Positions 5,797 through 22,546 of a stretch of DNA of 22,548 bases are shown in pieces. Every line of letters starts with the position of its first letter. Position 1 is the stretch's first letter. This DNA is from an uncultured Paracoccaceae bacterium (GTDB taxonomy: Bacteria > Pseudomonadota > Alphaproteobacteria > Rhodobacterales > Rhodobacteraceae): contig CAJXHQ010000005.1 in the NCBI GenBank assembly GCA_913054485.1, forward strand, positions 1-22,548, given 5' to 3'. Under the pieces are notes generated by a model. It did no database searches, had not been told where the DNA came from, and was given only the letters and a program-made list of their open reading frames with translations. A program made the translations under genes and the position numbers.

Positions 5797-5816
5797 CCTC
5801 CCCTCAATCGGGGAGG
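5797..5816. terminator. Stop-codon hairpin between convergent genes
   Basis: A perfect 7-bp inverted repeat, CCTCCCC - TCAATC - GGGGAGG, lies at the 3' end of the DddD-like gene. On the minus strand the 6-nt loop is GATTGA and contains the TGA stop codon (5804-5806). There is no T-run, so it is not a textbook intrinsic terminator. It lies between two convergent genes and could slow or stop RNA polymerase from either side, or protect the 3' end of the mRNA. A weaker inverted repeat (CCTCTG...CAGAGG, 5750-5777) lies just beside it. Confidence 0.5.
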
Positions 5817-8272
5817 TACTTCTGCGCCCAATGATTGGCCGCAGCGCCAGAGGTGATCATCCGGTCAATGGTCGCCTCCTCCAGGCCGAGGCGGGCCAGA
5901 ACGGTGCGGGTGTGGGCGCCGTATTTCGGCATCCAGGAGGGGATGGTGATTGTGCCGCGCTCCGGGCGGACCGCGTTTGGGGCCACCAGATCGCACCAGC
6001 GGCCCATCGGGTGCTGGTCGTGGCGGATCACCCGGAAAGTGTCTTTAGTCAGGTCGATATCCCCCTCGCTTTCTAGCTGGAGTGCCGCGTCGCGGGTGCC
6101 GTGCAGCGAGCCGAGCCGCACCACCGCGTTGGAAGTGCCGGCAAAACCTGCCTGCCAGAAAGCGACGGGACGGGTGGCAAAGCGCTCTGCCAGGGCTGCG
6201 TGCATCTGCGCTTCGGGAAGGGCTTCAAGATCGCTCAGCTCTGCCCCGGCAGCCAGCGCTGCCCCGCGTTCTGCCGGGGCGGCAAAGAACATCCAGCCGT
6301 CTTCGGCCTGGTAGCAATGGTAGAAGGGGCCCGCGCCCAGGGCCTCGCGGCCCGACGCCTCGTCAAAGGGCGCGCGGCCGTCAAGGTCATACATGAACTC
6401 TGCCTGGATCAGATTGCCGGCCGAGGCCAGCGCGGCGCGGGCAATATCGCCTTCGCCAGTGCGGCCGCGTTTCAACAGGGCAGCACCCAGGGCGGCGCAG
6501 GCGCAAAAGCCGGTCAGCACGTCGATGGTGCCGAAATGCGCGTGTTCTTCCGGCGTGTCCATGCCGCCGCCAAAGCGCAGCATGACGCCGGTGGCCGCCT
6601 GCGCCAGATCATCATAGCCAAGATGGTTGGACTTCGGCCCCTGAAGCGGCCCGCCGAAGGCATCGAGCTGGACCAGGATCAGGCCCGGGTTGATCGCCTT
6701 CAGCCGCTCCGGCGACAGACCCAGTGCGTCGCGCTGCTGATCGGTGCCGTTCATGGTGATTACATCTGCCGCACCGATCAGCCGCGACAGAACCTCCTGC
6801 CCGTCTTCGCTGCGCAGGTTCAGCAGCACGCTTTCTTTGCCACGGTGGGCGTGCATGCCAAAGACAACGGCGTTCCAGGGGTCCACCGAAGGAGAGACCG
6901 GCTGCACCAGCGTCACCTCGGCCCCGAAACGCGCCAGGGTGGAGCCGATGGTCGGCCCTGCAATCACATTGGTCAGGTCCAGTACCTTCAGCCCATCCAG
7001 CCAGCCACCGCTGGCGGCCTCTGCCGCCGGAGCTGCGCGGGGCAATTCGGCCAGCAAGGCCGCCAGATCCGCCGGGCGGGCCGGGTATTTCACAGCAGCC
7101 TCGGCATCCCCGGCAAGCCAGGCGATATTGCCCATCTGGCGCATCTCGCCATGGTCCGGGTCTTCCACCGTCAGCACCAGCCCGGAGGCCAGCGCATGGG
7201 GGTCCTTCAGCCACTCCTGGGTGGAGCGCTGCGCCGTTGCCGGGGCCTTGGCGGCCCCAAACAGCTCCTCCCATTCATGAGCGGGGCGGGTCAGGAAAGC
7301 GGCCTTCATGGCGCTGGATACCCGCGCGCGGTCAGACACCCCCACGGGGTAGCTGCGCACGGACCATTCTGCCGGCCAGCGGGCCTGATCCAGATAGGCG
7401 TCAAAATCAGGCAGCGACCTGGCCAAATGCCCCAGGCCCAGTGTGTCCAGCGCCCGCTCCGGATGACCCTTGATGCTGCAGGCCACCACGTAAAAACCGC
7501 GCCCGTCGGCACAGGGGTAGGTGCGGTAGAACGGATCGAGAAACTCGGACAGTTCCGGGAACTCCAGGTTCATCGGCAGACCCTCTGCCGCGCGCCGTTC
7601 CAGCTCCACCTCGCGGGGGGATTTGTAGCGCTCCGGGTAGTCCTCTATCTGCTGGCAGTTGTAGACCAGACCCTCCAGCAAGGCCGAGGCCAGGGGCACT
7701 TCGATATGTTCCCCGGGGCCGTCTCCGCGGGCCTGCAACGCAAAAAGCACCGACATCGCGCCGAAGGTGGACCCGTAGGCCGAGGCCAGCGCCAGCGGCG
7801 TGAAAGACGGGTTGATCCCCATCAGCCGGCGGTTCAGCCCCATGTCGGTGAACTGCCCGGTGCGCGCCGCAATCACCGCCTCCCAGGCCGCGGTCTCAGC
7901 CAGCTCCGGATCGGTGGAGGCAAAGCCCGGCATCGACAGGGAAACAATGCCGGGATTGACTGCGCGCAGTGCTTGCGCACCGAGCCCCAGGCGCTCCATG
8001 ACGCCGGGGCGGAAATTGTCGATCACGACATCCGCACGTGCCACAAGGGCTTTTGCGGTTTCCAGGCCTGCGGCGGTCTTCAGGTCCAGTTCCAGCACCG
8101 ATTTGCCGCGCGACAGCATCGCGGCGGCCGGCGATTTCATCCGCGGCCCGCCGGGCGGATCCACGCGGATCACCTCTGCCCCCATGTCGGCAAGCATCAT
8201 GCCCACCAGCGGGCCGGCCAGGTATTGGCCGAAATCGAGAACGCGCAAATGAGACAGGGGGCGATCGGTCAT
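5804..8272 (-). CDS. dddD: Fused two-domain class III CoA-transferase, probable DddD (DMSP CoA-transferase/lyase)
   Basis: The frame is open for 833 codons, but the second ATG (8272, MTDRPLSHLRVLDFG) has an AGGA 9 nt upstream and the first has none, so I chose 822 codons. Two CaiB/BaiF domains are joined. The first starts at LRVLDFGQYLAGP and the second at LKVLDLTNVIAGP, about 420 residues later. The second keeps the catalytic-type aspartate in FGTIDVLTGF (Asp584 from this start, Asp595 from the longer one). At the matching place the first domain reads NPSFTPLALASAYG, with no aspartate. A long fused CaiB pair with its active aspartate only in the second half is the known design of DddD, which makes dimethyl sulfide and 3-hydroxypropionate(-CoA) from DMSP; segments such as QFTDMGLNRRLMGINPSF fit my memory of that family. 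The usual partners dddT, dddB and dddC are not in the window, so another fused CoA-transferase for a betaine or carnitine-like acid remains possible. Confidence 0.65.
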   Translation of the reverse strand: MTDRPLSHLRVLDFGQYLAGPLVGMMLADMGAEVIRVDPPGGPRMKSPAAAMLSRGKSVLELDLKTAAGLETAKALVARADVVIDNFRPGVMERLGLGAQALRAVNPGIVSLSMPGFASTDPELAETAAWEAVIAARTGQFTDMGLNRRLMGINPSFTPLALASAYGSTFGAMSVLFALQARGDGPGEHIEVPLASALLEGLVYNCQQIEDYPERYKSPREVELERRAAEGLPMNLEFPELSEFLDPFYRTYPCADGRGFYVVACSIKGHPERALDTLGLGHLARSLPDFDAYLDQARWPAEWSVRSYPVGVSDRARVSSAMKAAFLTRPAHEWEELFGAAKAPATAQRSTQEWLKDPHALASGLVLTVEDPDHGEMRQMGNIAWLAGDAEAAVKYPARPADLAALLAELPRAAPAAEAASGGWLDGLKVLDLTNVIAGPTIGSTLARFGAEVTLVQPVSPSVDPWNAVVFGMHAHRGKESVLLNLRSEDGQEVLSRLIGAADVITMNGTDQQRDALGLSPERLKAINPGLILVQLDAFGGPLQGPKSNHLGYDDLAQAATGVMLRFGGGMDTPEEHAHFGTIDVLTGFCACAALGAALLKRGRTGEGDIARAALASAGNLIQAEFMYDLDGRAPFDEASGREALGAGPFYHCYQAEDGWMFFAAPAERGAALAAGAELSDLEALPEAQMHAALAERFATRPVAFWQAGFAGTSNAVVRLGSLHGTRDAALQLESEGDIDLTKDTFRVIRHDQHPMGRWCDLVAPNAVRPERGTITIPSWMPKYGAHTRTVLARLGLEEATIDRMITSGAAANHWAQKYLPD

Positions 8273-8385
8273 GGGGCAGGATCCTAAGACTGGGTGAAGC
8301 TGCATCCGCAGGGATTCTGGGAAAGCTAGCCTTGAATGCCGCCGGGCTATTGTTCAAATCTGCCAAAACTATTCCGAAAAAGACA

Positions 8386-8539: not shown

Positions 8540-10240
8540 TTACAGTGGCTGGCAGAGCCGTGCCGCATCCAGTACTGCTGCGTGAACGCCGCGCGCCGAA
8601 ACACAATCGCCGATCCTGAACAGGGCAAAATGCCCGTCTGTTCCCCGAACCCCGGTCAGACAGGGCTGCCGCTCGGCTGCTATTGTCGCTGCCGGGTCGG
8701 TGGTCCCTTATTGATGGCCCGGGCCCCCAATTCCTCATAGAGATCATTCATCGGCACAGTGCCTGTTTCGATCAGCACCTGATCAAAACAATTCTTTTCT
8801 GCCTAGCCGCCATATTCGGTGATCACCGTGGCAGAAATTCTTCCATCGCTGCGCTGCAGAGATGCCAGGCGCTTGTCGGGCCAGATGTCCACTCCGCCCG
8901 CATAGAGGTTGCGCAGGTGAATGGCATGGTTGGTGACGCCGGCGTCCTCGGCGATCATCCGGTCCGGGGTCATCAGTGTCACACGGGCGCCGGCAGCGGC
9001 CAGGAACTCGGCCGCGGTCGGCCCGCTCTGCCCGCCGGTTTCATCGTAGACCAGCACCTCGCCCTTGGGGGCCACTTCGCCGGAAAGGATTTCCCAAACG
9101 GAGTGCCCCAATGCCTCGCCGCCGGAAATCGGGCCCATCTCAGGCATGCCGCCCGTGGCCAGGATCACTACATCCGGCGATAGCTGAAGAATGTCCTCGG
9201 TCTCGGCATAGGTATTGAACCGGAAACTCACCCCCAGCGCTTCGCAGCGGGCGTAGAGCCAGCGGGTGATGCCGATTATGTTCTGGCGCCAGGGGATGCG
9301 GGCGGCATAGGCCACCTGGCCGCCTGGATCGGACTGGGCTTCCAGCACCGTCACGCTGTGGCCGCGCCCGGCGCAGAGCCGGGCGGCCTCCAATCCAGCC
9401 GGACCGGCCCCGGTTATGACAATCTTCAGGCGTCCGGGTGCTGTACCGGTGTTGTACGACAGCACTGTTTCGCGTCCTGTTGCCGCATTGTGCAGGCATA
9501 GCCCATCGCCGCCACGGAGGATCCGGTCGATGCAATAGCCTGCGCCGACACTGGGGCGTATCTCCTCATCTTTGCCGTCCAGATGCTTGCGCACCATATG
9601 CGGGCCGGCAATCTGCGCGCGGGTCATGCCGATCAGATCCACATGTCCCTCGCTGACCGCAAAATTGGCGGTGGCCAGATCGCCGACACCTGCCGCATGC
9701 AGCACCGGCAGGCCGGTGGCGCGGCGCACCTTGCCGGCCAGTTCCGCGAAACGCCCTGCCGGAAAGGCCATGGACGGCACCGTTTCGGCAACCCCCGCCT
9801 TGGTCCAATTCGCCGCGCCCGAGACGTTCAGGCAATCCACAAGGCCGCTGGCGGCATGGATCTTGGCAATGGCGATACCGTCCTCTTCGGTGATGCCGCC
9901 TTCAATGAACTCATTTGCGGTGAAGCGCAGGCTGATCAGGAACCCGTCGCGCACAGCGCTGCGGATGGCGTCCAGCACCTCCACCCCGTCCAGCCCGCCG
10001 TCCGGACAGCGCCGCGCGGCTTGGCTGAGCTGGCACATCATGGGCGTGGGCCCGGTTCGCAAAAGCGCTGAAATGCGGGAAGATCCGGTCAACTGGCACG
10101 TTCAGCTGGCCGAAGGAGGGTGGCGGATCCATCGAGACAGGAGAGGCGCCTCCGAACATGTCCATCGCCAGCCCGCCGCGGGCGTTGCCTTCGTGTTAGC
10201 GCTGGTAGCGCTCGCCCGGCAATCCGTCCTCGGTGCGCGC
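8540..10240 (-). pseudogene. Decayed second TMADH-like flavoprotein gene
   Basis: This is a wrecked relative of the gene at 1624-3669. From the upstream end: TEDGLPGERYQR, an in-frame TAA, then RGGLAMDMFGG and SFGQLNVPVDRIFPHF. A frameshift near 10036 leads to MMCQLSQ. A stretch matching about residues 106-152 of the intact paralogue is missing, then AARRCPDGGLDGVE is followed at once by VLDAIR, a second loss matching about residues 167-203 and including the Tyr-Gly-His active-site block. The middle (LRFTANEFIEGGI to ITEYGG) is an open frame of up to 429 codons ending at TAG 8803-8805. Homology continues beyond it (CFDQVLIETGTVPMNDLYEE), and after another frame change ends with HFALFRIGD and a TAA at 8540-8542. 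The linker reads RPSVGAGYC, so one more cluster cysteine is lost than in the intact copy. The N-terminus ends at the IS30 element. No active enzyme can be made. Confidence 0.9.
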
Positions 10241-10265
10241 TACTTCCAACTGCGACTCTTGTTAG
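10241..10265 (+). repeat. IS30 left terminal inverted repeat
   Basis: The left end begins TACTTCCAACTGCGACTCTT. Read inward from the other end, the right terminus begins TACTTGAAGCGCGACTGTTG. The two agree at TACTT and at GCGACT-x-TTG, with several mismatches and one extra base in the left copy. Confidence 0.7.
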
Positions 10266-10298
10266 AAAACAGTAGTTTATCTAAAAAGAGGAATCGGA

Positions 10299-11300
10299 AT
10301 GGGAGCCGTATACAGCCAGCTGAGTATCATAGAACGACGCAGAATTGAACGCTGGAGGCATGCAAAGGTCCCCGTTGACGAGACGGCACGTGTTCTCAAG
10401 CGCTGCAGATCAACGATTTTCCGGGAACTGAAACGTAATCATTTCAACGACGAGAGCATGCCAAAATGTGATGGTTATTACGGCGCTGCGGCCCATCAAA
10501 TGCAGGCTGATCGGCGGTTACGACAGCGCAAATTGATTAAACACCCGGATCTGTGCAAACGTGTTGTCGAGCGGCTCAAGAACGGTTGGACACCAGAGCA
10601 GATCGGCAACCGGATGATCCATGAAGGTGCGCCTGTGCGTGTCTGTCAGGAAACGATCTATCGCTACATTTACTCCAAAGAAGGTCAGCGCGATGACCTG
10701 TGGTGGTATCTTCCCACGCATCGTGTCACGCGCAGACCACGGCGTACCCGAAGACGCAGAGAACCGAAATTCCACCGTGATGTCAGCATCCTGTTCCGCC
10801 CTGATGATGTAGCCCATCGACGCCAGTTCGGGCACTGGGAAGGTGATTTGATGTTGTTCAAACAAAAGCTTGGACAATCGAATGTGACGTCTCTGGTCGA
10901 GCGGGTCAGCCGCTTCACCGTGATCCTGAAGAACCCGAACAAGCGGACCAAACCAGTCATGGGCAAGATCATGGATGCCATCCGCGATCTGCCCCTTTTT
11001 GCCCGCAGGTCGATCACATTCGACCGTGGCACAGAATTCGTCAGCTGGCCGCATCTGCAAGCTGAGATCGGCACGCAAACGTGGTTTTGTGACCCGTCAT
11101 CGCCCTGGCAGAAAGGCACCTTCGAAAATACCAACCGCCGCGCCAGACGCTGGCTGTCCCGAAAACGCGACATTCGAGGCATGACAGACCACGACATGAA
11201 GCAGATCTGCGACCGTCTCAACAATACACCCCGAAAATGCCTGGGGTGGAAAACGAAAGCCGAGGTCTTCCGCGAAAAGATGCTGGAGGGAATGCAATGA
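10299..11300 (+). CDS. IS30-family transposase
   Basis: The 333-residue protein starts with the IS30 helix-turn-helix (YSQLSIIERRRIERWR, then RCRSTIFRELKRN, residues 5-47). Its RNase-H-like catalytic core shows Asp183 in HWEGDLM, Asp242 in ITFDRGTEF and Glu276 in WQKGTFENTN. The last two are separated by 33 residues, the DD(33)E spacing of IS30. Basic stretches (RRPRRTRRRR, 145-154) fit DNA binding. GAGG lies 7 nt before the ATG. All catalytic residues and a normal length are kept, so it is probably functional. It cuts and joins the ends of its own element. Confidence 0.95.
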   Translation: MGAVYSQLSIIERRRIERWRHAKVPVDETARVLKRCRSTIFRELKRNHFNDESMPKCDGYYGAAAHQMQADRRLRQRKLIKHPDLCKRVVERLKNGWTPEQIGNRMIHEGAPVRVCQETIYRYIYSKEGQRDDLWWYLPTHRVTRRPRRTRRRREPKFHRDVSILFRPDDVAHRRQFGHWEGDLMLFKQKLGQSNVTSLVERVSRFTVILKNPNKRTKPVMGKIMDAIRDLPLFARRSITFDRGTEFVSWPHLQAEIGTQTWFCDPSSPWQKGTFENTNRRARRWLSRKRDIRGMTDHDMKQICDRLNNTPRKCLGWKTKAEVFREKMLEGMQ

Positions 11301-11316
11301 GCCCCCTACCCTGACC

Positions 11317-11340
11317 CCAGCAACAGTCGCGCTTCAAGTA
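11317..11340 (-). repeat. IS30 right terminal inverted repeat
   Basis: This is the partner of the left repeat. On the plus strand it ends CAACAGTCGCGCTTCAAGTA. It lies 17 nt after the transposase stop codon, as expected for a compact IS30 element. Confidence 0.7.
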
Positions 11341-11726
11341 TCGCTCACAAACTAGCCATCCCGCATATGATCGGCTCAGACTTCGAAACGGCGCGGGGCA
11401 TTCTGGAGGATTATTCGCGGCAGACCGAACCGGCCTTGTGGAGCGAACTGAACCTCCGTTTCCACCACGCGCTTTATGAACCCTGCTAAAACCCGCTGCT
11501 GTTGCAGATGATCACCGATCTGCAGCAAAGGATCGGCCCGCAGCTGCGCCTGCTTGTCACCGAAGTGAGCGGACTGGAGCGGCCTCAGGCGGACCACAGG
11601 GCAATCCTGGATGCCTGCGAAGCCGGAAACACGGCCGAAGCCGTTGCAGCGCTGCGCCTGCATATCCTGACGACACGGAAAGAAACCGCAGCCCAATTGA
11701 GGCGGGGGCTGGCTGGACCGGAATAG
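11341..11726 (+). pseudogene. GntR-family regulator remnant (FCD ligand domain only)
   Basis: In one frame the sequence reads FETARGILEDYSRQTEPALW, then ELNLRFHHALYEPC, an in-frame TAA at 11487-11489, and goes on as NPLLLQMITDLQQRIGPQLR and DHRAILDACEAGNTAEAVAA, ending at TAG 11724-11726. N-x-x-FH-x-ALY, NPLL...I and H-x-x-IL-x-A-x-x-AG-x-x-x-x-AV are the signature blocks of the FCD ligand-binding domain of FadR-type GntR regulators. The winged-helix DNA-binding half is missing and its place is taken by the IS30 right end. It cannot act as a repressor. Before the damage it may have controlled one of the neighbouring amine-catabolism genes (inference). Confidence 0.85.
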
Positions 11727-11783
11727 CCGCTTTCCAAGGGATTCTCGTACCAGGGTGAGCGATCTGCGTGGTTGCAGGCAGGA

Positions 11784-12713
11784 TTCGGCGACCAGTTCCT
11801 CCATGAAGCGCCATCCTTTCCGGAGCTGGTCCATATCGATATATTCATCCGGCTGATACGCCTGGGCGATATCGCCGGGGCCGCAGATTGCTGTGGAAAA
11901 TCCCCGCCGCTGGAGCAGCCTGCCTTCGGTGGCGCAGCTGACAACGCGGGGCGTATTGTCGCCAGTGAGGCGCCGGGCTAAGGCTTCGGCTGGGGGCCAG
12001 TCCCGGCGCGCTGAAGTCCTGAAACAGGGTAATTCCGGCTGCCGGGTGCACCGCCTTCATTTGTGCCTCCAGCCGGGCAGCGTCCCCTTCAAAGCGGGCC
12101 TCCCACTGGTGCTGATCCTCACCCGGAACCACACGGAAATCGATCTCGAAACGGCAGTCGCGGGCGGTGATGTTATGGGCGGTGCCGCCTTTATGGCCCG
12201 AGATCGCCTGCATCATCGAAGGTTCGCCTACGATCACCGCTTCCGCCTTGGGCAATCCGCTGGCCAGTATACGGTCGATCATCGGCGGCGCGCCGGTCAT
12301 GCCGGTCACTTCGTCAGTGCTCAGCGCGATCTGGATCGGGCGCTTCAGCGGGCTTTTCATCATCAGCGGCACCGCGGCCTGCGCCAGTGCCACTAACCCC
12401 TTTGTGTCGCAGGTGCCGCGGCCGTAGAGCCTGCCGCTGCGTTCCGTCACGGTGAAGGGATCGCTGCTCCAGTCCAGACCTGTCACCGCCACCACGCCGG
12501 TATGGCCCGACTGCATCACGTCGCCACCCACTTCGGGTCCGATATGGGCAAAGACCGACGCCTCGGTGCCGCAAGGCGACGGCACACAGGTTGGCGTTAC
12601 CCTTGGGACAGAAGGTATTTTTCAACGAAATCGACCAGCGCCAGATTGCTGTCGCTGCTGACAGTGGGGAGGGCCGCAAGCCGGTCAAGGATCTGGCGTG
12701 CGCTGAGGTCCAT
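11784..12713 (-). pseudogene. argE: Acetylornithine-deacetylase-like (M20 peptidase family) remnant
   Basis: Starting at ATG 12713, MDLSARQILDRLAALPTVSS and SNLALVDFVEKYLLSQG match the N-terminus of ArgE-like M20 enzymes. The frame is then lost. A second frame carries SVFAHIGPEVGGDVMQSGHT, FTVTERSGRLYGRGTCDTKG and AEAVIVGEPSMMQAISGHKG. It then jumps straight to GTAHNITARDCRFEIDFRV, so the dimerisation domain is deleted. After another frame change AICGPGDIAQAYQPDEYI and WRFMEELVAE form the C-terminus; the normal stop is lost and the frame runs on to 11376. Two catalytic sites are also worn: the usual SGHTD reads SGHTG, and the usual DEEVG reads DEVTG. These zinc enzymes deacylate N-acyl amino acids in the cytoplasm. 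Several unrelated lesions make this a clear pseudogene. Confidence 0.9.
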
Positions 12714-13003: not shown

Positions 13004-14677
13004 TCAGGCCTCTTTCTGCGGTGTTTTGAACAGGTCCTTGCGCAATGTCATCAGCGCGCCTGGGTCGATCTTGGCTTGAATGACCGTGGTTTCTTTCGAT
13101 GCTATAGCCTCCTGCAAGGCGGGTCCCATTCCGCCCGGGCCGTCGACCCAGATGCCTTTGCCACCGCATAGTTCCGCGAATTTATCATACCGCGGGCTTT
13201 GGATTTCTGCCCCCAGCAGACGGCCGCCATAGAATTCTTGCTGATAGGCTTTTTCCGCCCCCCACGCTTCGTTGTCCAGAACCACAATCACAATCGGCAA
13301 GTTGCTGGAAATGGCAGTCTGGATTTCGATCATCGTGTAGCCAACCGCGCCATCACCCATGACCGCTACAACCGGGCGGTCCGGCGCAGCGGCTTTGGCA
13401 CCAATCGCAGCTGCCAGGCCAAAGCCGACCAGCCCGAAATCAAGCGGCGTGATCAGCGACAGGGGGGCGTAATGAGCCAGACGGTCGGCGGCCTGCAGGC
13501 AGGTGTTGCCGGTGTCGAGTGTTACAATAGCGGTTTCAGGCAAGGCCTCGCGCAATTCGCCCAAGGCGCGGCGGGGATGCATGGGTAGGGACTCGATCTC
13601 CGCCTCGGCGGCGCGTTCAGCACGAAGGCTGTCCATATCGGCCCGGAAATTGGCGCGCCATGCGCTGCAATTGGGTTTCGCGGCGGCCTCGGTCAGCGCG
13701 TCAGCGGTCAGGCGGGCATCACCCTGAGCCGCAATCTCAGCGGGAAAATACCGGCCAACGGCAGCGCCCTCTACGTCAACATGCGCAATGCGGGTGTCCG
13801 CCCCAACATAATCATTACTGTGGAAGGTGGAGTTGAATCCAAGGCGTGCGCCCAGCACCACCATCACATCCGCCTCTTTCGTCAGCCGCGAGGCGACGCG
13901 ATTGCCGCGCGGCCCGGCCTGACCGGCAAACCACGGATGGCCGTGGCGCATCACATCTGCATGTCCGGTCGAGGCTACAACCGGCACTTCCAGCCTTTCG
14001 GCCAGAGCAGTCAGCGCATCGCGCCCTCGGCCCCATTTGAATCCGCCACCGGCAAAGATAACAGGGCGTTCGGCACCGGCAAGCAGATCGGAGATTGCGG
14101 CGATATCGACGGGTGCGGCGGGGCCGGGGCGGGCGATCTGCAGCGGCTTGGGGTCGAAGGCAGGGACTTCTTCTGCGAAGAGGTCGCGGGGCACATGCAG
14201 GACTACCGGGCCGCGGCGGCCCGTGTTGGCCAGCCGGATGGCATCCTCCAGCATCGGCGCCAATCGCGTGGGATCGGTGACCATGACCGAGCGTTTGCAG
14301 ATCGGCGCGAACAGGGCGACTTGATCGACTTCTTGAAAGGTGTCCTTGCATTGATCAGCGCGCGTGATTGCGCCGGCGATAACCACCATAGGCGAATAGG
14401 CCAGGTGTGCTTCGGCAACCGCGGTCACGATATTGACCACGCCCGGCCCGGCCTGCGCGCCCAGGACAACACCCGGCTTGCCCGTCATCCTGGCCCATGC
14501 ATCCGCCATGTGTCCCGCCGCGCGTTCGTCGCGCGCGCTGACATAGGCGATCTCTCCGCCTTTATACATCGCGTCATAAAGTTCGAGCATCGAGCCGCCC
14601 AGAAGGCCGAACACTGTGTCGATCCCATTGGCATTCAAAACGCGATAGAGGGCTTCACCGCCATTGATCGTGGTCAT
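13004..14677 (-). CDS. ThDP-dependent enzyme, acetolactate-synthase-like
   Basis: This 557-residue protein has the three-domain layout of the acetolactate synthase/oxalyl-CoA decarboxylase superfamily. The N-terminal pyrimidine-binding domain includes the activating Glu51 (SARDERAAGHMADAWAR). The central domain covers about residues 190-330. The C-terminal pyrophosphate-binding domain has GDGAVG (441-446), followed 27 residues on by Asn469 (VLDNEAWG), the magnesium/diphosphate motif. It is therefore expected to bind ThDP and cleave or join a C-C bond next to a carbonyl. No regulatory small subunit is beside it, and the sequence does not match sulfoacetaldehyde acetyltransferase as I remember it. 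AGGAGA lies 6 nt before the ATG. It is on the same strand as the MttB operon but separated by a 231-bp gap with a likely terminator, so it may have its own promoter. The substrate is unknown; a 2-oxo acid or hydroxyacyl compound from the nearby pathway is plausible. Confidence 0.8.
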   Translation of the reverse strand: MTTINGGEALYRVLNANGIDTVFGLLGGSMLELYDAMYKGGEIAYVSARDERAAGHMADAWARMTGKPGVVLGAQAGPGVVNIVTAVAEAHLAYSPMVVIAGAITRADQCKDTFQEVDQVALFAPICKRSVMVTDPTRLAPMLEDAIRLANTGRRGPVVLHVPRDLFAEEVPAFDPKPLQIARPGPAAPVDIAAISDLLAGAERPVIFAGGGFKWGRGRDALTALAERLEVPVVASTGHADVMRHGHPWFAGQAGPRGNRVASRLTKEADVMVVLGARLGFNSTFHSNDYVGADTRIAHVDVEGAAVGRYFPAEIAAQGDARLTADALTEAAAKPNCSAWRANFRADMDSLRAERAAEAEIESLPMHPRRALGELREALPETAIVTLDTGNTCLQAADRLAHYAPLSLITPLDFGLVGFGLAAAIGAKAAAPDRPVVAVMGDGAVGYTMIEIQTAISSNLPIVIVVLDNEAWGAEKAYQQEFYGGRLLGAEIQSPRYDKFAELCGGKGIWVDGPGGMGPALQEAIASKETTVIQAKIDPGALMTLRKDLFKTPQKEA

Positions 14678-14908: not shown

Positions 14909-17320
14909 TTACATCTCCGATCTGGGGCGCTGGTTTTCGGGATCAAACAGCGCCTCTTCATGAACGGTTACGGCAATCTCGCGGTTCAGGATCTGCACGC
15001 TCAACCCTTCAGGCGGCGTGCCCTTGCGCACAAAGAGCCAGCCCAGGGACTTGCCGATGCGATAGCCATAGCCGCCCGATGTGGTCAGTCCGACAATCTT
15101 GCCATTCTGCACAACCAGCTCACCGCCGTGAATGTCGATGCTCTCATCATGAAGCTCGCAGTAAAAGAGCTCCCATTCGGGATCGCTGGCCAGCATCGCG
15201 TCTTTACCGGTGAAATCACGATCCTTGGTCACGATGAACCGCTCCAGCCCCACATCCCGCGGCCCGATATCCGTGGTCAGTTCACCGCTGGCGCGATAGG
15301 CTTTCTCCATCCGCATTCCATTAAAGGCATAGGATCCCAAATCGGTCAGCTGGTGCTTTTCACCCGCCGCGAACAGAGCATCATAGAGCTCGGCAATATG
15401 GTCGAGCGGGGCGTGCAGCTCCCATCCAAGCTCACCGGCAAAGGACACACGCAGCGCATAACACGGCACGCTGGCCACTGTGATTTCCTGTCCCGAAAGC
15501 CAGGGGAAGGCCGCGCTAGAAAGATCCGCATCTGTCAGCTCAGACAAGATGCGGCGCGAGGCTGGACCAGACATGGCCAGCATGCCCCAATCGGCGCTGC
15601 GGTCGATCATCTGCACGTCTTCGCCGGGCTTGATATGGCTTTTGATCCAGGCGAAATCGGGATTGGCGCGGGCCATGGGCGAACCGGTGAAGTACCTGTC
15701 GTCATTGATCCGCCAAATGGTGATTTCGGTTTGGAACCGGCCCTTTTCGGTCAACAGGTGGTTGAGGCTCATCCGCCCGTTTTTGCGCGGCACCCGGTTG
15801 GCCGAGATCCGATCCAGAAGCTTACCAGCGTCTTTGCCCGTGATCTCGAACTGGGCAAAGGCACAGAGGTCGATCACGCCAGCGGCGTCACGGGTGGCTT
15901 TTGCCTCGGCTAAGGCATTTGCATGCCAGGGCTGATGGCCCCAACCAATTTGCTCGCTCTCACCCGCTTCGCCGAAATACCGCGGACGTTCCCAGCCGGA
16001 CACCTCGCCGAACACAGCGCCTTTGGCGGCAAGGCGATCATAAAGCGGATGCCGTTTAAGCGGACGCAGGGCGTTGAACTGCTTGCCCGGGCAGGGTGTG
16101 TCATGACGGCGCATGAATTCATCTTTGGTGCGTTCCACGATGAAATGATCGGTGGTGAAATCGCCATAGCGGCGTGGATCCAATCCGCGGGTGTTGATCG
16201 CGGTTTCACCATGCACCATCCAATCAGCCAGCACTTTGCCCGCACCGCCCCCCCAAGCCAGACCAATGGAGGACCCGCAAGACAGCCAGACATTCGGCGC
16301 GCCCGACGGTCCGACCAGCATTCCGCCATCGGGCGTATGGGTGATCGCCCCGCGCACAACGCGTTTGATCCCAAGCTCGGCAAGGATCGGCATTTTGTCA
16401 AAGGCGACCATCAGGAAGTCCGCAATGCTGTCGTAGTCCGCCTCAAAAAGCTCATTTTCGGCCGCCCAGGGTGCGCCTTGCGGCATTTCCCAGACGGTTG
16501 GGCAGACATGGCCCTCGTATATGCCGATCAGACCCGACTTTTGTTCCTGGCGGATATAGCCGCCAAAGGAATTGTCCCGCATCACCGGCAGTTCCGGACG
16601 GCCCTGAAATTCAGGCACTGTATCGGTGACCAGATAGTGGTGCAGACAGCTGACCGACGGGATCTTCAGCCCGAACCACGCGCCGACCTGATTGGCGTAG
16701 GACCCGGCGGCGATCACGATATGTTCGGCCAGAACCTCGCCTTTTTCGGTCTTGAGCAGCCACATGTCACCCTTGCGGCTGGCGCCCAGAACCTGATTGT
16801 GACGTTCAATCCTAGCCCCGCGTGCGCGGGTGGCTGCGGCCAGCGCCATTGTCACGCCGGAGGGGTCGATATGCCCGTCCTCATAGGTGCGCACGGCAGC
16901 TTTCACGTTGTCGACTTTGTAAAACGGGTTGATCCTGGCAACCTCTTGCGGACCAACCAATTCCATCGGCAGATCAAGCAATCTGCCAACACCCATGATC
17001 GACTTCATCCAATCGACCTCGTCATCCGTGGTTGCGATGCGCAGCCCGCCGACTCCGTGCCAGCCAATGCCTTGGCCGGTTTCTTTTTCGACCTTTTTGT
17101 AGGTCTCGATCGAGGTCTTGTTGACCCAGCCCATGACGCGGGAGCCGACGGCATGAGCGATCTGGCCTGCCGCATGCCAGGTCGAGCCGCTGGTCAGCTC
17201 GGCCTTTTCAAACAGGATCGTGTCGGTCCACCCGGCTTCGGCCAGTTGGTATTGGGCGGCGACGCCCATGATGCCGCCACCGATAATGGCGACGCGCGTG
17301 GTGCGGAGCGTGTCTGACAT
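14909..17320 (-). CDS. FAD/GcvT-type dimethylglycine (sarcosine) dehydrogenase-like flavoprotein 2
   Basis: The product has about 803 residues. An N-terminal DAO domain starts at the dinucleotide motif GGGIMG. STWHAAG follows, whose histidine (His49 from the chosen start) is the residue that holds FAD covalently in mitochondrial dimethylglycine dehydrogenase. After a short FAO_M linker (near HPLYDRLAAKGAVFGEVSGW), the C-terminal half is a GcvT-like folate domain (from VIDLCAFAQFEITGKDAGKL to the end). Such enzymes oxidise an N-methyl amine and pass the one-carbon unit to tetrahydrofolate. An earlier ATG at 17353 exists. I chose 17320 because GGAGG lies 7 nt upstream and it overlaps the TGA of the previous gene by one base (TGATG), the same coupled style as the rest of the operon. 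It is a distant paralogue of its upstream neighbour, so the two probably act on different substrates or successive steps. Confidence 0.85.
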   Translation of the reverse strand: MSDTLRTTRVAIIGGGIMGVAAQYQLAEAGWTDTILFEKAELTSGSTWHAAGQIAHAVGSRVMGWVNKTSIETYKKVEKETGQGIGWHGVGGLRIATTDDEVDWMKSIMGVGRLLDLPMELVGPQEVARINPFYKVDNVKAAVRTYEDGHIDPSGVTMALAAATRARGARIERHNQVLGASRKGDMWLLKTEKGEVLAEHIVIAAGSYANQVGAWFGLKIPSVSCLHHYLVTDTVPEFQGRPELPVMRDNSFGGYIRQEQKSGLIGIYEGHVCPTVWEMPQGAPWAAENELFEADYDSIADFLMVAFDKMPILAELGIKRVVRGAITHTPDGGMLVGPSGAPNVWLSCGSSIGLAWGGGAGKVLADWMVHGETAINTRGLDPRRYGDFTTDHFIVERTKDEFMRRHDTPCPGKQFNALRPLKRHPLYDRLAAKGAVFGEVSGWERPRYFGEAGESEQIGWGHQPWHANALAEAKATRDAAGVIDLCAFAQFEITGKDAGKLLDRISANRVPRKNGRMSLNHLLTEKGRFQTEITIWRINDDRYFTGSPMARANPDFAWIKSHIKPGEDVQMIDRSADWGMLAMSGPASRRILSELTDADLSSAAFPWLSGQEITVASVPCYALRVSFAGELGWELHAPLDHIAELYDALFAAGEKHQLTDLGSYAFNGMRMEKAYRASGELTTDIGPRDVGLERFIVTKDRDFTGKDAMLASDPEWELFYCELHDESIDIHGGELVVQNGKIVGLTTSGGYGYRIGKSLGWLFVRKGTPPEGLSVQILNREIAVTVHEEALFDPENQRPRSEM

Positions 17321-19719
17321 CAGAACGCCTCCTTCGCGGGTTTGAGGGAGCACTTTGCGGTGAACCTGGTGCAGGCGATGTCAACTTCGAAACCGTGCAC
17401 GACGTCTTGCGCGCGAAGCTGGTCCAGCGGCGCGTCGATCAGCGCAAGCGCTATGGAGCGGCCAAACCTGTAGCTCCATGCAGCCGAGGTGATCTGACCC
17501 ACGACTTTACCGCCGGCATAGACCGGCTCATCATGGATCGGCACTGCATCCGGGTCATCAAAGATGAGCGATACGATCTGGCGTTTGGGGGGATTGGCGC
17601 CGGTCAGGGCCTCTTCGCCGACAAAGCCCGTGCCAAAGGCGCAGAATGCGCCCAATCCGGCCTCTTGAGGAGTCGTGCCCGGCGTCAGCTCATGCCCAAA
17701 GGCGCGGAATCCGCTTTCGATCCGCAACGAACCACTGGCATACAGTCCCGCATGGGTGCCGCCCGCGGCCACCAAAGCCTCATGCGCGGCCATGGCCATA
17801 TCGGCGGGGATGTAGAGTTCGTAACCTTCCTCGCCCGTAAAGCTCAGCCGTCCGGCCCAGCCACGTGCCAGACCGACCTCTACCGGGGCAAAGCCAAAGC
17901 GTTTCAGGTCCGGCACCGGGGCATTGCTGGTGGCTTGCAGCACGTCGCGCGCCTTGGCACCGGCAAGGCCGATCACCGCATAGCCGCTGGTCACGTCAGT
18001 GAAGGCGACACGGGAACCGCCCTTGGTGTCGCGCATCCGCTGCATGTCGCGCACCACTTCGCCAGCGCCGGTGATCATCAGATAGGTTTCCGGCCCATGA
18101 CGCTGCACCGTCAGGTCGCTTTCGATGCCGCCCCGCGCATTCAGGATCTGAGTATAGGCGATGCGGCCTGCTTCGATATCCATTTGTGCCGTGCACAGCC
18201 GGTTGAGGAAGCTGCAGGCATCTGGTCCCTGCACCAGGATCTTGCCAAAAGCCGATTGGTCCAGAATGGCCGCGCCATTGCGGCAAGCCTCCACTTCATG
18301 TGCCACTTGCCCGCGCCATTTTGGAGCGCCAAAGGTCAGTGGCAAATGGGCTGCCCCGCCCCCGAAATGCACCGCGCGTTCCCAGCCGCCGCGCCCTTCA
18401 AATTTCGCGTTAGCCGCAACCAGGCCGCTATGGATGGGCGAGCGGCGCTGACCGCGCGCGGTCTCCATCGTGCGGCCCGGATAGGGGTTATCGTAGTGAC
18501 GCCCCAGCACCTCGGGAATGCGGGCTTCCAACGCGCCAAGCACGTTCATCTCGGGGCTGAACCGTCGGATATCGGCCTCGTTCAGCTCCATCGTCGGCTC
18601 ACCCGCGATGATCCATTCGGCCATCGCCTTGCCCGCACCACCCGCCAGCGCGATGCCGGTAGAGTTCATACCGCCGATCAGGAACAGGCCCGGAACTTCG
18701 GGGCTTTCGCCCATCATGAATTGGCTGTCGAGGGTGAAACTCTCCGGCCCGTTTAACAGCATCCGCACTTCGGCCGTTTCAAGCGCGGGAATACGGCGCA
18801 GCGCATTCTCCATCATAGGCATGAAGTGGTCCCAATCTTCATCGAGCAGATCAAAGGAGAAATCGGCAGGCAGATCCTTGGTTGAGATGCCCTTGGCATG
18901 GGGCTCAAACGAGCCAACGAGCAGCCCCTCCACGTCGTCGCGGGCATAGAGGAACGCGTCCTGATCGTTGAGCGTCGGCAAATGCGCGCCCTTGCCTAGC
19001 GCCTGTACTTCCGCCAGCGGCTTGGTCAGCATGTAGAAATGCTCGCAGGCATAAAGCGGCATATGTGCCCCGGCCATCTCGGCAACCTCACGTGACCAAA
19101 GGCCGGAAGCGATCACCACCTCATCGGCTTCAATCACGTGGTCGCCGATCCCGACCCCGGAAATGCGGCCGTGCTTCTTCTGCAATCCGGTCACGCGGGT
19201 GTCTTCGAAGAACCTCACACCGCGTGCCTTGGCGCCTTTCGACAACGCCAGCGCCACGTCAGATGGGTTCACCCGCCCATCCGCTGGCGACCAGACCGCA
19301 CCGATGACGTCATCGGTTTCGATTAATGGCCAAAGCTCTTTGGCGCAGGCCGCATCGACCACCTCGGCCTCCAAGCCAAAGCCACGGCCAAGCGAGACCT
19401 GACGTTTGATATTGGTCAATCGGTCTTCGTTCGTCGCCAGAGTCAGAGATCCCGTCTGTATCCAGCCCGTGGCCTGCCCGGTTTCCACTTCCAGCTCGCC
19501 ATAAAGGTCGATGGAGTAGTTGATCAGCTTGGTGAGCGTCGCAGAGGGGCGCAGCCGGCGCACCAGCCCGGCGGCATGCCAGGTGGTGCCAGAGGTCAGC
19601 TTGGAACGTTCCAGCACCACGATGTCTTTGCGCCCTTCACGGGCGAGGTGATAGGCGATTGAGCAGCCGATAACGCCCCCGCCGATAATCACGGTGCGGG
19701 CGGTTGAGGGAAGTGTCAT
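17320..19719 (-). CDS. FAD/GcvT-type dimethylglycine (sarcosine) dehydrogenase-like flavoprotein 1
   Basis: This 799-residue protein has the full dimethylglycine-dehydrogenase layout. The DAO domain shows IIGGGVIG at 11-18 and SGTTWHAAGLVR, with His48 as the candidate covalent FAD site. An FAO_M segment follows (around YPGRTMETARGQRRSPIHSG). The C-terminal GcvT domain includes LVQGPDACSFLNRL, then LRIESGFRAFGHEL and WSYRFGRSIALALI. Expected role: oxidative demethylation of a methylated amine with methylene-tetrahydrofolate as product, in the cytoplasm; electrons would pass to an acceptor such as ETF, not seen here. A GGAG element lies 7 nt before the ATG. The start overlaps the aminotransferase stop by ATGA, and its own stop overlaps the next start by one base. 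The family is secure. Substrate preference (dimethylglycine, sarcosine or another N-methyl compound) is not readable. Confidence 0.88.
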   Translation of the reverse strand: MTLPSTARTVIIGGGVIGCSIAYHLAREGRKDIVVLERSKLTSGTTWHAAGLVRRLRPSATLTKLINYSIDLYGELEVETGQATGWIQTGSLTLATNEDRLTNIKRQVSLGRGFGLEAEVVDAACAKELWPLIETDDVIGAVWSPADGRVNPSDVALALSKGAKARGVRFFEDTRVTGLQKKHGRISGVGIGDHVIEADEVVIASGLWSREVAEMAGAHMPLYACEHFYMLTKPLAEVQALGKGAHLPTLNDQDAFLYARDDVEGLLVGSFEPHAKGISTKDLPADFSFDLLDEDWDHFMPMMENALRRIPALETAEVRMLLNGPESFTLDSQFMMGESPEVPGLFLIGGMNSTGIALAGGAGKAMAEWIIAGEPTMELNEADIRRFSPEMNVLGALEARIPEVLGRHYDNPYPGRTMETARGQRRSPIHSGLVAANAKFEGRGGWERAVHFGGGAAHLPLTFGAPKWRGQVAHEVEACRNGAAILDQSAFGKILVQGPDACSFLNRLCTAQMDIEAGRIAYTQILNARGGIESDLTVQRHGPETYLMITGAGEVVRDMQRMRDTKGGSRVAFTDVTSGYAVIGLAGAKARDVLQATSNAPVPDLKRFGFAPVEVGLARGWAGRLSFTGEEGYELYIPADMAMAAHEALVAAGGTHAGLYASGSLRIESGFRAFGHELTPGTTPQEAGLGAFCAFGTGFVGEEALTGANPPKRQIVSLIFDDPDAVPIHDEPVYAGGKVVGQITSAAWSYRFGRSIALALIDAPLDQLRAQDVVHGFEVDIACTRFTAKCSLKPAKEAF

Positions 19720-21005
19720 TCTAGGACTCCGTCGCGGATCATGTCCGACAGTGTTGCGCCGAAGGCTATGAGGGCCTCGTCAATCAAGTCTGGGGTATGG
19801 GCCGCGGAGGTCAGGCCCGAAGTGTAAGCCATCATATCCACCCCGCGCGACAGCATCCCGTCGCGATAGGCTTTGACCGTTGGTTTGGGCAGCCCGCGGA
19901 TTTCGGCGGGGCCAAGACCATCGAGACTGCCGCGGCCAAAATAGACGTGAAAAATGGAGCTTTCACCATAGGCAATGCCCGCCACTCCCTGCTCGGCCAT
20001 TGCGGTATTCATGCCACCCCGCATCCGGGCCGCCATCGCATCCGCTTGGCGCTGTGCCTCGCCGCTGGCCAGAAGCGGCATCGCGGCACAGGCTCCGGCC
20101 GCAACCAAGGGGGAGCCGTTAAACGTGCCCTTATGGCTGACCGCGGGTGCAATTCCATTGCGCTCAGTAGTGTTGTTCAGCAGCTCCATGATGTCAGCCC
20201 GGCCGCAGATCGCGCCACCAGGCAAGCCGCCAGTGACAATTTTGGCCAGGGTGGTCAGATCGGGCAAGATGCCATCACGCGCCTGCCGTCCGCCGGGAGA
20301 CCAGCGAAAGCCGGTAATGATTTCATCGAAGATCAGCACCACACCCGCCGCCCTTGCCACGTCGTGCAAGGCCCGCAGTGTTTCGGTGGCCATGGGCACA
20401 GAGCCGTAGTTCGCGCCCGAGGCCTCGATGATGACGGTGCCGATGCGCTCGTCCTGCAGCGCGCTTTCCATCGCCCGGGGGGAAGCGGCGCAGATATGGA
20501 TCAGATCATTGATCGCACCCGGAATGCCAAGCGACGGGGCCTGATCGCTGCCGGGTTTGGCACCTTTCAGGGCATGGTCATGCCAGCCGTGAAAATGGGC
20601 TTCAACGCGCAACACGTGATCTTTGCCGGAGTGCGCCCGTCCCAACCGCAGGGCCAGCATGGTGGCTTCTGTACCAGAGGCCGTAAAGCGTGTCCGTTCA
20701 GCAGAGGGGTAGAGCCTGTTGACCCATTCGGCCCACTCAACCTCAGCTGCGTGGCAATCGGCGCTGAAGATCGAACGTTCGGCTTGCTTTTGGATCGCCT
20801 CGACGATGGCCGGATGGCAATGCCCCAGCATCTGGCTGGCGCTGCCCATTTTGAAGTCAATGTAGCGGCGCCCATCCACATCCCATTTCTCGGCCCCCGA
20901 TGCGCGGTCTGTAAAAACCGAATACGGATCGCGATACCGCAGTTCATGGCTGACCCCGCCGGGCAATGCGGCACGGGCGCGGGTGCTCAGGTTTTGATTT
21001 TTCAT
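19716..21005 (-). CDS. Class III PLP aminotransferase / glutamate-1-semialdehyde aminomutase-like
   Basis: The 429-residue product has the class III fold type I motifs: FTASGTEATMLALRL (107-121) for the phosphate site, FDEIITGFR with Asp227 facing the pyridine nitrogen, and LAKIVTGGLPGGA with Lys255 as the Schiff-base lysine. Its N-terminus (RARAALPGGVSHELR) is close to the opening of GSA-aminomutase-like proteins. A true HemL is unlikely given the operon: this copy sits between an MttB-like methyltransferase and two N-demethylating flavoproteins, overlapping both neighbours by ATGA. I infer transamination or an amino shift on a product of the methylated-amine pathway. The amino donor and acceptor are unknown. 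Confidence 0.85.
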   Translation of the reverse strand: MKNQNLSTRARAALPGGVSHELRYRDPYSVFTDRASGAEKWDVDGRRYIDFKMGSASQMLGHCHPAIVEAIQKQAERSIFSADCHAAEVEWAEWVNRLYPSAERTRFTASGTEATMLALRLGRAHSGKDHVLRVEAHFHGWHDHALKGAKPGSDQAPSLGIPGAINDLIHICAASPRAMESALQDERIGTVIIEASGANYGSVPMATETLRALHDVARAAGVVLIFDEIITGFRWSPGGRQARDGILPDLTTLAKIVTGGLPGGAICGRADIMELLNNTTERNGIAPAVSHKGTFNGSPLVAAGACAAMPLLASGEAQRQADAMAARMRGGMNTAMAEQGVAGIAYGESSIFHVYFGRGSLDGLGPAEIRGLPKPTVKAYRDGMLSRGVDMMAYTSGLTSAAHTPDLIDEALIAFGATLSDMIRDGVLE

Positions 21006-22546
21006 TCCGGCCGTCCGGTTTGCGCCCGTGTGAGGCGTATGTCGAATTTCTCGCGCAGTGCGCGATCTACGTCGTCAGGCACATGCGACGGGAAGGAGCT
21101 GTTCAAGATCTCCCTTGCCTTATCACGCGCCACGTCTCCAATCCGTTGCCCGCCATCATCCTGCCAGTCGCGCGGCGCACGGCGATCGCCGATTTCGGGG
21201 TAGAAATAATCCGATTTCATCCGGCTGAATGTGTGTTTCTCGCCCAGATAGTGGCCTTCGCCCCGGCACACTCCGGCAATAACATCGGCGGCGATGTTCT
21301 CCGGCGTCACCTCGATTCCGCGAATGGTTCGCAGAATATTGCCCAGAAGGTCGTTGTCGCTGACATAGGCCGCGTGGCTGACGCCCAGAAGGCTCGACAT
21401 CATGCCCGCCGCTTGAGTGATGATGTTGGAGCCCGCATGCGCGGCCATCGTCACCGCCAGAGACTTCTCCGCGCCATATTGTGCATCCAGCCGCTTTGCA
21501 TCCGTGATCCCGGCAATCGAACTGGTCGGCAGGTCCCATCGCCGCCCCATCTGCGCGGCGCCTGCCATCAGAATGGCCTGCTCGCCGCCGCCGCCGCTCA
21601 TCGAGCCGGTGCGCAGATCAGCAACCAGCGGCTTGGGTGCAAAGATCGCCTTGACCCCGCTGTCGACCAGGCGCGCAAAGACGAGACCTGCCAGCGTTTC
21701 CGCCACCGCCTGTACCAGTGACCCGGCGATTGTGGCCGGGCTGGTGGCCCCGGCTTGCCCGGCGCTGATCAATTGCACCGGGAAGCCGGCTTTGATCGCC
21801 AGCTCCAGCACTTCGCAGGCCTCTTCCGCGAAGCGCATGGGCGGCACGACATGGCAGACCATAACCGTCAGGAAGGGCCTGGCGCGGAACGCCGCTTCGC
21901 TTCCCGCAAGCGTGTAGCAAAGCTCTGCAGTGTCAGCGACATTCTGCGGCTCTGTGATGGAAACCGATACATGTTTGGAGGTGCCCGCGAGGCAGGCATA
22001 GGCCGTGTTGATGTCCATCAGCGCGCTGTCTTCAATGTCGCGTGCTACAACCGAACGGCTGAAGTGGTGAATATTGTCCATCCGGTCCACGATGCGGGCC
22101 GCGTCATACAGATCCTGCAGCGTGGAGTCGCGGTAACAATGCGTGTCCAGATCAAACACGCCGGGGGCCGCCCCGCCCGTGGACATATGCACGCGGCCGG
22201 CTTCGATTTTCAGATCGCGCTCCGGCTGCTGTCCGCAAAGCGAAAATCCGCGCTGCGCTCCTTCAATCGCCCATTGCACCAGCTCGCGCGGAAACAGCAG
22301 CCTGCCGTCGCCGGTAACGGTCCCGCCCGCGCTGGTGACCCGGTCGATCATCGACGGGATCGCCTGGCTGAGCCCCAGGGTCTCCAAGAGCGAAAACGCC
22401 GCCTCTTCCACCAGGATGACCTCATCGGTGGTAAGCGGTTTCAGCCGGCCGCCCGCGACGCCTGGCCAGACAGGAGGAGAGGGGTCGGCCGTTGTGGCTT
22501 GCTTTAAGCGGTCTTTGCGACCGCGCCGCCGGTTTTCTTTGGTCAT
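21002..22546 (-). CDS. MttB-superfamily (trimethylamine/betaine) methyltransferase without pyrrolysine
   Basis: The 514-residue protein, near the usual length for the superfamily, reads through with no internal amber codon, so it belongs to the non-pyrrolysine branch. Known members of that branch demethylate glycine betaine, proline betaine or carnitine onto a corrinoid protein. Conserved-looking blocks include STGGAAPGVFDLDT, SVSITEPQNVADTAELCYTL, TGSMSGGGGEQAILMAGAAQ and YGAEKSLAVTMAAHAGSN, the last typical of the TIM-barrel core. A basic N-terminal tail (MTKENRRRGRKDRLK) precedes the fold. The ATG lies 2 nt from the window edge, so a longer start cannot be excluded. The stop overlaps the aminotransferase start by ATGA. 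No corrinoid-binding (MttC-like) or activating protein is in the window, so the methyl acceptor is unknown. It is the first visible gene of a four-gene coupled operon. Confidence 0.85.
   Translation of the reverse strand: MTKENRRRGRKDRLKQATTADPSPPVWPGVAGGRLKPLTTDEVILVEEAAFSLLETLGLSQAIPSMIDRVTSAGGTVTGDGRLLFPRELVQWAIEGAQRGFSLCGQQPERDLKIEAGRVHMSTGGAAPGVFDLDTHCYRDSTLQDLYDAARIVDRMDNIHHFSRSVVARDIEDSALMDINTAYACLAGTSKHVSVSITEPQNVADTAELCYTLAGSEAAFRARPFLTVMVCHVVPPMRFAEEACEVLELAIKAGFPVQLISAGQAGATSPATIAGSLVQAVAETLAGLVFARLVDSGVKAIFAPKPLVADLRTGSMSGGGGEQAILMAGAAQMGRRWDLPTSSIAGITDAKRLDAQYGAEKSLAVTMAAHAGSNIITQAAGMMSSLLGVSHAAYVSDNDLLGNILRTIRGIEVTPENIAADVIAGVCRGEGHYLGEKHTFSRMKSDYFYPEIGDRRAPRDWQDDGGQRIGDVARDKAREILNSSFPSHVPDDVDRALREKFDIRLTRAQTGRPE

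Follow-up and report, generated by a model that had tools for sequence, protein, structure and literature searches.

A conserved five-gene operon around a non-pyrrolysine MttB homologue: a candidate aerobic route for a trimethylated amino compound

The DNA considered here is a 22,548-nucleotide contig of an uncultured Paracoccaceae bacterium (CAJXHQ010000005.1, analysed at its full length and called the window below), which carries on its minus strand an operon led by a methyltransferase of the MttB superfamily. The operon is larger and more modular than first described and would be a new form of cobalamin-dependent MttB catabolism. We hold with moderate confidence, from gene content, that its five genes would form an aerobic catabolic pathway that strips and then degrades a trimethylated amino compound other than glycine betaine; this confidence attaches to the architecture of the pathway and not to its substrate. 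The genes are as follows.

21002..22546, minus strand: MttB-superfamily methyltransferase (PF06253), non-pyrrolysine, 514 amino acids, first gene of the operon
19716..21005, minus strand: class III aminotransferase (AT; Aminotran_3) of the glutamate-semialdehyde-aminomutase/D-phenylglycine-aminotransferase type, 429 amino acids
17320..19719, minus strand: DG1, a dimethylglycine dehydrogenase (DMGDH)-like flavoprotein with DAO, FAO_M and GcvT domains (Pfam), 799 amino acids
14909..17320, minus strand: DG2, a second DMGDH-like flavoprotein (Pfam), 803 amino acids from the ATG at 17320
13004..14677, minus strand: fifth gene, a thiamine diphosphate (ThDP, also TPP) enzyme of an Xsc-like clade (NCBIfam, tree), 557 amino acids

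Gene content and conservation of the operon

The initial annotation described four genes with overlaps of 4, 4 and 1 nt, and the open reading frame (ORF) coordinates agree with it at the MttB/AT, AT/DG1 and DG1/DG2 junctions respectively; in the mechanical frame, DG2 begins with a GTG that precedes the ATG at 17320 by 33 nt. That list of four genes stands, but it overlooked both the ThDP gene, which follows DG2 in the same direction after 231 nt and belongs to the operon, and an alternative layout built on an OYE-type flavoprotein. The right edge of the window lies 2 nt before the MttB ATG, and as the window is the complete contig (one of 692 in a metagenome-assembled genome, or MAG, that is 75% complete) nothing is readable beyond it. 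The closest homologues of this genome point to a Roseobacter related to Ruegeria.

The first protein matches the Pfam family MTTB (PF06253) at 488.5 bits (gathering threshold 25; E 1.8e-146) over positions 1-491 of the 500-position profile, with a glycine betaine methyltransferase (9yce) and a putative methyltransferase (2qne) as best solved relatives at 184.8 bits each. It is alike over nearly its full length to the MtgB/MttB superfamily of anaerobes, which includes these two and the pyrrolysine-containing MttB 7xcl, but differs from them in having no adjoining corrinoid gene and Ile347 where 7xcl has pyrrolysine. Its frame is open without an amber codon and it scores 322.7 bits against the pyrrolysine MttB model TIGR02369, whose cut-off is 525, so that its original description as a non-pyrrolysine homologue holds good. 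We know of no activity for the MttB clade of the operon. The aminotransferase matches Aminotran_3 at 162 bits (cut-off 30.5; E 2.4e-47) and has D-phenylglycine aminotransferase as its nearest solved structure. DG1 and DG2 share with dimethylglycine dehydrogenase (5l46, 4pab) the order DAO, FAO_M, GCV_T, GCV_T_C over nearly their whole length, and both retain, when aligned to it (DG1 to 4pab), the TWHAAG motif, whose histidine we take to be the flavin-linked one; the best solved relative of DG2 is 5l46. Unlike dimethylglycine dehydrogenase, they stand as two dissimilar copies (29% identical) side by side.

Conservation was assessed in 80 MttB loci from named GTDB genomes, found by MttB alignment and being the best 80 of 139 that qualified, with gene content determined by seed searches and intergenic distances estimated from the ends of tblastn alignments. 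All five genes occur together in 43 of the 80. Loci of the window's layout, here called DG-type, number 47, and hold AT in 46, DG1 in 47, DG2 in 46, the ThDP gene in 44 and a LysR gene in 45, with the OYE gene in none. A further 20 loci are of the OYE type (OYE gene 20, ThDP gene 18, LysR 10, and none with AT, DG1 or DG2), while the remaining 13 are of neither type (DG2-like 8, ThDP gene 3, LysR 2, AT 1, TcuA-like 1). All five DG- or OYE-type loci that lack the ThDP gene, two of them OYE-type, stop at a contig end. Spacing is tightly kept in the 43 five-gene loci: the DG1-DG2 junction lies between -10 and +1 nt in every one, AT-DG1 is -4 nt in 33 and MttB-AT is -4 nt in 24, and DG2 is separated from the ThDP gene by 6 nt or less in 26 loci, by 15-207 nt in 10 and by over 1300 nt in seven, where an amidase gene intervenes each time. 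Since the same order recurs in dozens of genomes, it is not a product of chance, and the possibility entertained at first, that comparison across Roseobacter genomes would find the genes scattered, is not what the loci show. Upstream, where the contig ends and where the initial annotation had looked to a corrinoid-binding protein, an activator or a transporter, the relatives have a divergent LysR gene within 600 nt of MttB (43/47 DG-type and 10/20 OYE-type loci), with neither a corrinoid or activase gene nor a recurrent transporter.

Seeds other than MttB lead to similar loci. The ThDP seed gave 11 matches at 1e-130, its own genome included, among 386 genomes of the class; those about 60% identical lie in three other genomes, all with MttB and OYE genes adjoining, and seven are 43-45% identical, MttB adjoining one of the six inspected. 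The DG1 seed gave four matches in 150 genera of the family, again including its own genome, and the other three have the operon, cut inside AT by a contig end in one case. These samples are not fully independent of the 80 loci, in that locus L076 seems to come from genome G362, and L052 from G034.

The distribution is patchy but coherent. In Ruegeria pomeroyi DSS-3 the operon lies on the megaplasmid (SPO_RS21380-21400, the ThDP gene being SPO_RS21380), and it is also plasmid-borne in Ruegeria sp. THAF33. It occurs in some Gammaproteobacteria and in Roseobacters including Ruegeria halocynthiae, Halocynthiibacter and Paenihalocynthiibacter styelae; the names of these Roseobacters, as given in record titles, suggest animal hosts. 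One OYE-type operon (L061) is found in a record titled Oceanobacillus, a title that is probably a mislabel or reflects a mixed culture, since that genome (G541) appears identical to G005, a genome of the window's family.

In the 20 OYE-type loci a single flavoprotein of the FadH/OYE/TMADH family replaces AT, DG1 and DG2, while the ThDP gene stays in 18. In the MttB phylogeny, DG-type loci branch from within a grade of OYE-type loci and themselves enclose a single OYE locus (L046, Thiotrichales); the layouts require 2 label changes against 17.5-17.7 in shuffles, a contrast that near copies inflate. The protein matches long-form flavoproteins of its family over their full length but differs from them in standing for AT, DG1 and DG2 behind MttB, and its nearest named model falls below cut-off. 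As no AT lies within up to 10 kb to either side of an OYE-type locus, the flavoprotein may itself produce the oxo compound, in the manner of trimethylamine dehydrogenase (TMADH), and perhaps does the work of demethylation and deamination by direct C-N cleavage. Through this exchange of modules, the role of a TMADH-like flavoprotein could be tested directly.

Corrinoid partners encoded elsewhere

The initial annotation placed folate enzymes in the position of the corrinoid protein, and this view did not survive a search of host genomes. The corrinoid-binding domain B12-binding_2 (PF02607) was sought in 13 genomes, 10 of which bear the operon (G002, G032 and G066 do not), and was found in 12 of the 13 and in nine of the 10. 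At least one match in every one of these 12 falls in a stand-alone frame of 235-364 codons; a long MetH-like frame is matched as well in G005 and G065. The activase domain RACo_C_ter (PF14574) is present in 9/9 operon-bearing genomes, the source MAG among them; of 14 control genomes, Methanosarcina alone has it.

These two proteins, a corrinoid-binding protein and a reductive activase, are those of an MtgBCD-type cobalamin system. According to the available text of PMC12478193, MtgBCD carries out aerobic, MttB-type demethylation of glycine betaine in R. pomeroyi DSS-3 with an unlinked, shared corrinoid subunit. Common to both systems is a PF06253 enzyme of aerobic Roseobacters whose genomes carry the genes for corrinoid protein and activase at other sites. 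The operon differs in having another PF06253 protein, together with two DMGDH-like proteins, an aminotransferase and an Xsc-like enzyme. Because operon-bearing genomes hold both partners, as in MtgBCD, the operon most likely feeds the MtgBCD cobalamin core.

The alternative, that the folate flavoproteins themselves accept the methyl group, with no part for a cobalamin protein, is highly improbable. It is consistent with the lack of a corrinoid gene in or beside the operon, and a profile search found no PF02607 match in the source MAG, which is 75% complete, a result that also weighs against a shared core; a single PF02310 match was found there. Set against it are the corrinoid protein and activase of nearly all host genomes, including the activase of the source MAG itself, and the unlinked MtgC that MtgBCD requires in the published account (PMC12478193, as far as available).

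The same text suggests that the other PF06253 proteins of R. pomeroyi serve further methylated compounds and leaves the role of these paralogues open; for one of these paralogues the operon, conserved as it is, offers a definite candidate. It is also directly testable, as this model bacterium, in which knockouts are published, carries it, and to identify its substrate would be to find a methylated compound for whose use marine bacteria are equipped. Up to seven PF06253 proteins are mentioned in PMC12478193, in the part consulted. The source MAG has a large family for a genome of 3.8 Mb, with 18 PF06253 matches, several of them fragments, on contigs C259, C71, C98, C254, C8, C30, C12, C3 and others.

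The ThDP enzyme and the candidate substrate

The reactions proposed here, and their order, are predictions from family membership. MttB would transfer one methyl group to a cobalamin protein of the MtgC kind, encoded at another locus and reactivated by a RamA/RACo protein, and thence to tetrahydrofolate; DG1 and DG2 would oxidise the two remaining N-methyl groups, passing the one-carbon units to folate; the aminotransferase would convert the resulting primary amine to an oxo compound; and the ThDP enzyme would cleave the latter. In other lineages the OYE/TMADH-type flavoprotein would cover the second and third steps. Stepwise demethylation of a polymethylated amine followed by deamination, as first proposed, is retained as a reading of genes that are kept together, but was incomplete in lacking the gene for the ThDP enzyme. 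It is very unlikely that this MttB homologue has a different reaction, for instance with a tertiary amine or with a methyl donor other than nitrogen, and that the substrate is not a quaternary amine. The substrates of PF06253 are diverse, but two adjoining DMGDH-like demethylases fit the removal of two further N-methyl groups, and the enzymes of the superfamily treated in the discussion of PMC12478193, in the part available, act on quaternary amines. PMC13222342 was considered as a source for an MttB member with another methyl donor and set aside, the terms occurring in its reference list only.

The last enzyme bears on the substrate. Its NCBIfam ranking places Xsc models first (407 and 392.2 bits), then acetolactate synthase (361). 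In a tree whose references are four plasmid Xsc and five Escherichia coli enzymes (31 of 32 rows, the over-long L061 being left out; 21 loci with the ThDP gene drawn on), the operon enzymes and Xsc come out as sister clades (100/98), separate from IlvB, IlvI, Gcl, PoxB and Oxc, though long branches and few references count against leaning on this position. Eleven positions are common to 4/4 Xsc and absent from 5/5 other enzymes, including W472, A474 and E475 of the WGAEK motif. The catalytic glutamate is retained in 23/23 aligned operon enzymes, where E. coli Gcl has valine; the surrounding residues, which set these enzymes apart from Xsc, read RDER in 21 of the 23 (RHEC in L076, HDER in L079). 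Two Xsc seeds searched against the ORFs of the 80 loci had the operon ThDP enzymes, at 32-35% identity, as the best matches listed.

This kinship, together with two neighbourhoods elsewhere, underlies our leading guess at the substrate, a sulfonate betaine such as taurobetaine (N,N,N-trimethyltaurine), which we offer tentatively. Taurobetaine would be converted to taurine, then to sulfoacetaldehyde, and finally to acetyl phosphate and sulfite. On an Alisedimentitalea plasmid, an MttB homologue (43%) and two DG genes lie near TRAP genes, about 7 kb from xsc-YeiH. In G209 (L138, 7442-14153), a ThDP enzyme (43%), a DG2-like gene and CuyA (D-cysteate sulfo-lyase, above cut-off) stand in a row with MttB convergent to them, possibly a pathway for methylated cysteate. 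The fuller version, held more tentatively still, is an aerobic, cobalamin-dependent pathway for taurobetaine or a related sulfonate betaine. In it the sulfonate would be released by an Xsc-like paralogue that has a substrate of its own, and the OYE flavoprotein and AT + DG1 + DG2 would be interchangeable modules. If true, the cycling of methyl groups, nitrogen and sulfonates between bacteria and marine animals or algae would be linked through this pathway.

A number of observations weigh against these proposals. The ThDP enzyme falls below the Xsc cut-offs (620 for one model; 676.4 for TIGR03457, against 392.2 bits) and differs consistently from Xsc at 44 positions. The cut-off of the Xsc model is exceeded in 13 of 16 genomes searched; all of the 16 but G066 bear the operon, and a true Xsc coexists in 12 of these 15, being absent from the source MAG, G540 (L046) and G065 (L064); a second sulfoacetaldehyde enzyme would be redundant there, so the operon enzyme probably acts on a substrate of its own, distinct from that of true Xsc. 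The homologues in both neighbourhoods cited above are remote (41-43% for MttB), and of 133 loci checked just three carry CuyA, G209 being one. Seeds for pta and YeiH (two each) and ComDE found nothing among the ORFs in the flanks of the 80 loci. Taurobetaine does not explain three recurrent neighbours: a TcuA-like FAD dehydrogenase (14/47 DG-type, 11/20 OYE-type loci), an aldehyde dehydrogenase (16/47 and 4/20) and the amidase (7/47 and 1/20). The OYE protein scores 269 bits with a dienoyl-CoA reductase model and 167 with that of TMADH. The presence of MttB in all 80 loci follows from the search design, and the substrate and activities of the operon enzymes are predictions.

The aldehyde dehydrogenase bears on the main rival, an Ehrlich-type route, which we regard as doubtful. 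Here an alpha-N-trimethyl amino acid would be demethylated, the aminotransferase would give a 2-oxo acid, the ThDP enzyme would decarboxylate it to an aldehyde, and the neighbouring dehydrogenase would oxidise the latter. Across the loci the aminotransferase is of two types. In 14 of the 21 loci of the second type (below 65% identity to the window's AT) an aldehyde dehydrogenase of the BADH/aminobutyraldehyde/phenylacetaldehyde type lies between MttB and AT, and the loci that seem to hold two aminotransferases have this dehydrogenase followed by AT; four of the 20 OYE loci also have one. This route accounts for the dehydrogenase better than the sulfonate betaine does, suits an aminotransferase whose closest solved structure is an alpha-amino acid enzyme, and agrees with the many relatives of the ThDP enzyme that are 2-oxo acid decarboxylases or synthases. 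Against it, the ThDP enzyme groups with Xsc and has Xsc-only residues, and none of the 25 loci with the window's type of AT (at least 65% identity) has an aldehyde dehydrogenase between MttB and AT.

Glycine betaine, a common marine betaine, is a quite unlikely substrate. MttB, DG1 and DG2 would then yield glycine, the aminotransferase glyoxylate, and the ThDP enzyme would be a glyoxylate carboligase (Gcl). The retained glutamate speaks against this, its replacement by valine being, we presume, a mark of Gcl; moreover, Gcl is not among the 25 models listed for the window's ThDP enzyme, and the relative in L062 scores 274 bits with Gcl and 436 with Xsc. In its favour, the best solved relatives of MttB include a glycine betaine methyltransferase, and PMC9723723, in the part available, lists SPOA0310 under 'Glycine', with higher levels late in diatom co-culture. 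In the proteomics of PMC12478193 on glycine betaine, choline and carnitine, the induced PF06253 proteins are SPO2108 and SPO2134, and no SPOA gene is named in the main text as available. The catalytic glutamate and these proteomic data together place this reading low.

For R. pomeroyi, the accessible text of PMC4334477 lists SPOA0309 as a sulphoacetaldehyde acetyltransferase and gives no evidence for it there; from the order of tags and from megL being SPOA0318, we infer that SPOA0309 is SPO_RS21380. The true xsc of R. pomeroyi is SPO3561 (PMC9870897, in part). A search of the main texts of open-licence literature turned up no publication that gives the operon a function, and the available portions of PMC9870897, PMC10041152 and PMC9038784 do not mention it.

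Recurrent neighbours and the rest of the window

The TcuA-like FAD dehydrogenase was searched for with two seeds (L062, 8280-9800; L010, 19349-20800) and occurs in 25 of the 80 loci, in Alpha- and Gammaproteobacteria and in both layouts, at 67% identity or more to the better seed. No transporter recurs beside the operon: among the neighbouring ORFs scanned (45 of 74 and 65 of 155, with the first 25 of 50 and 25 of 81 families), ABC_tran was found in 4/65, DctM in 2/65 and others once each. Relatives of the ThDP enzyme (about 44%) in L134, L135, L136 and L139 lie near an aldehyde dehydrogenase 37-39% identical to that of the operon. In L134, the annotated one, a luciferase-like monooxygenase and an alpha/beta hydrolase stand between the two; this neighbourhood is another uncharacterised cluster.

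The region adjoining the operon in the window (8803-12585) is remodelled. Its features, and one further gene, are listed below.

8803-10092: OYE-type flavoprotein, truncated, without a start
10299-11300: IS30 transposase, between the truncated flavoprotein and the ArgE-like fragment
11845-12585: short fragment of an ArgE-like deacetylase
5804-8305: 833-amino-acid protein with two class III CoA-transferase domains

The two CoA-transferase domains presumably correspond to the layout of the dimethylsulfoniopropionate lyase DddD, and in L032 a gene 75% identical to this one lies directly upstream of the operon.

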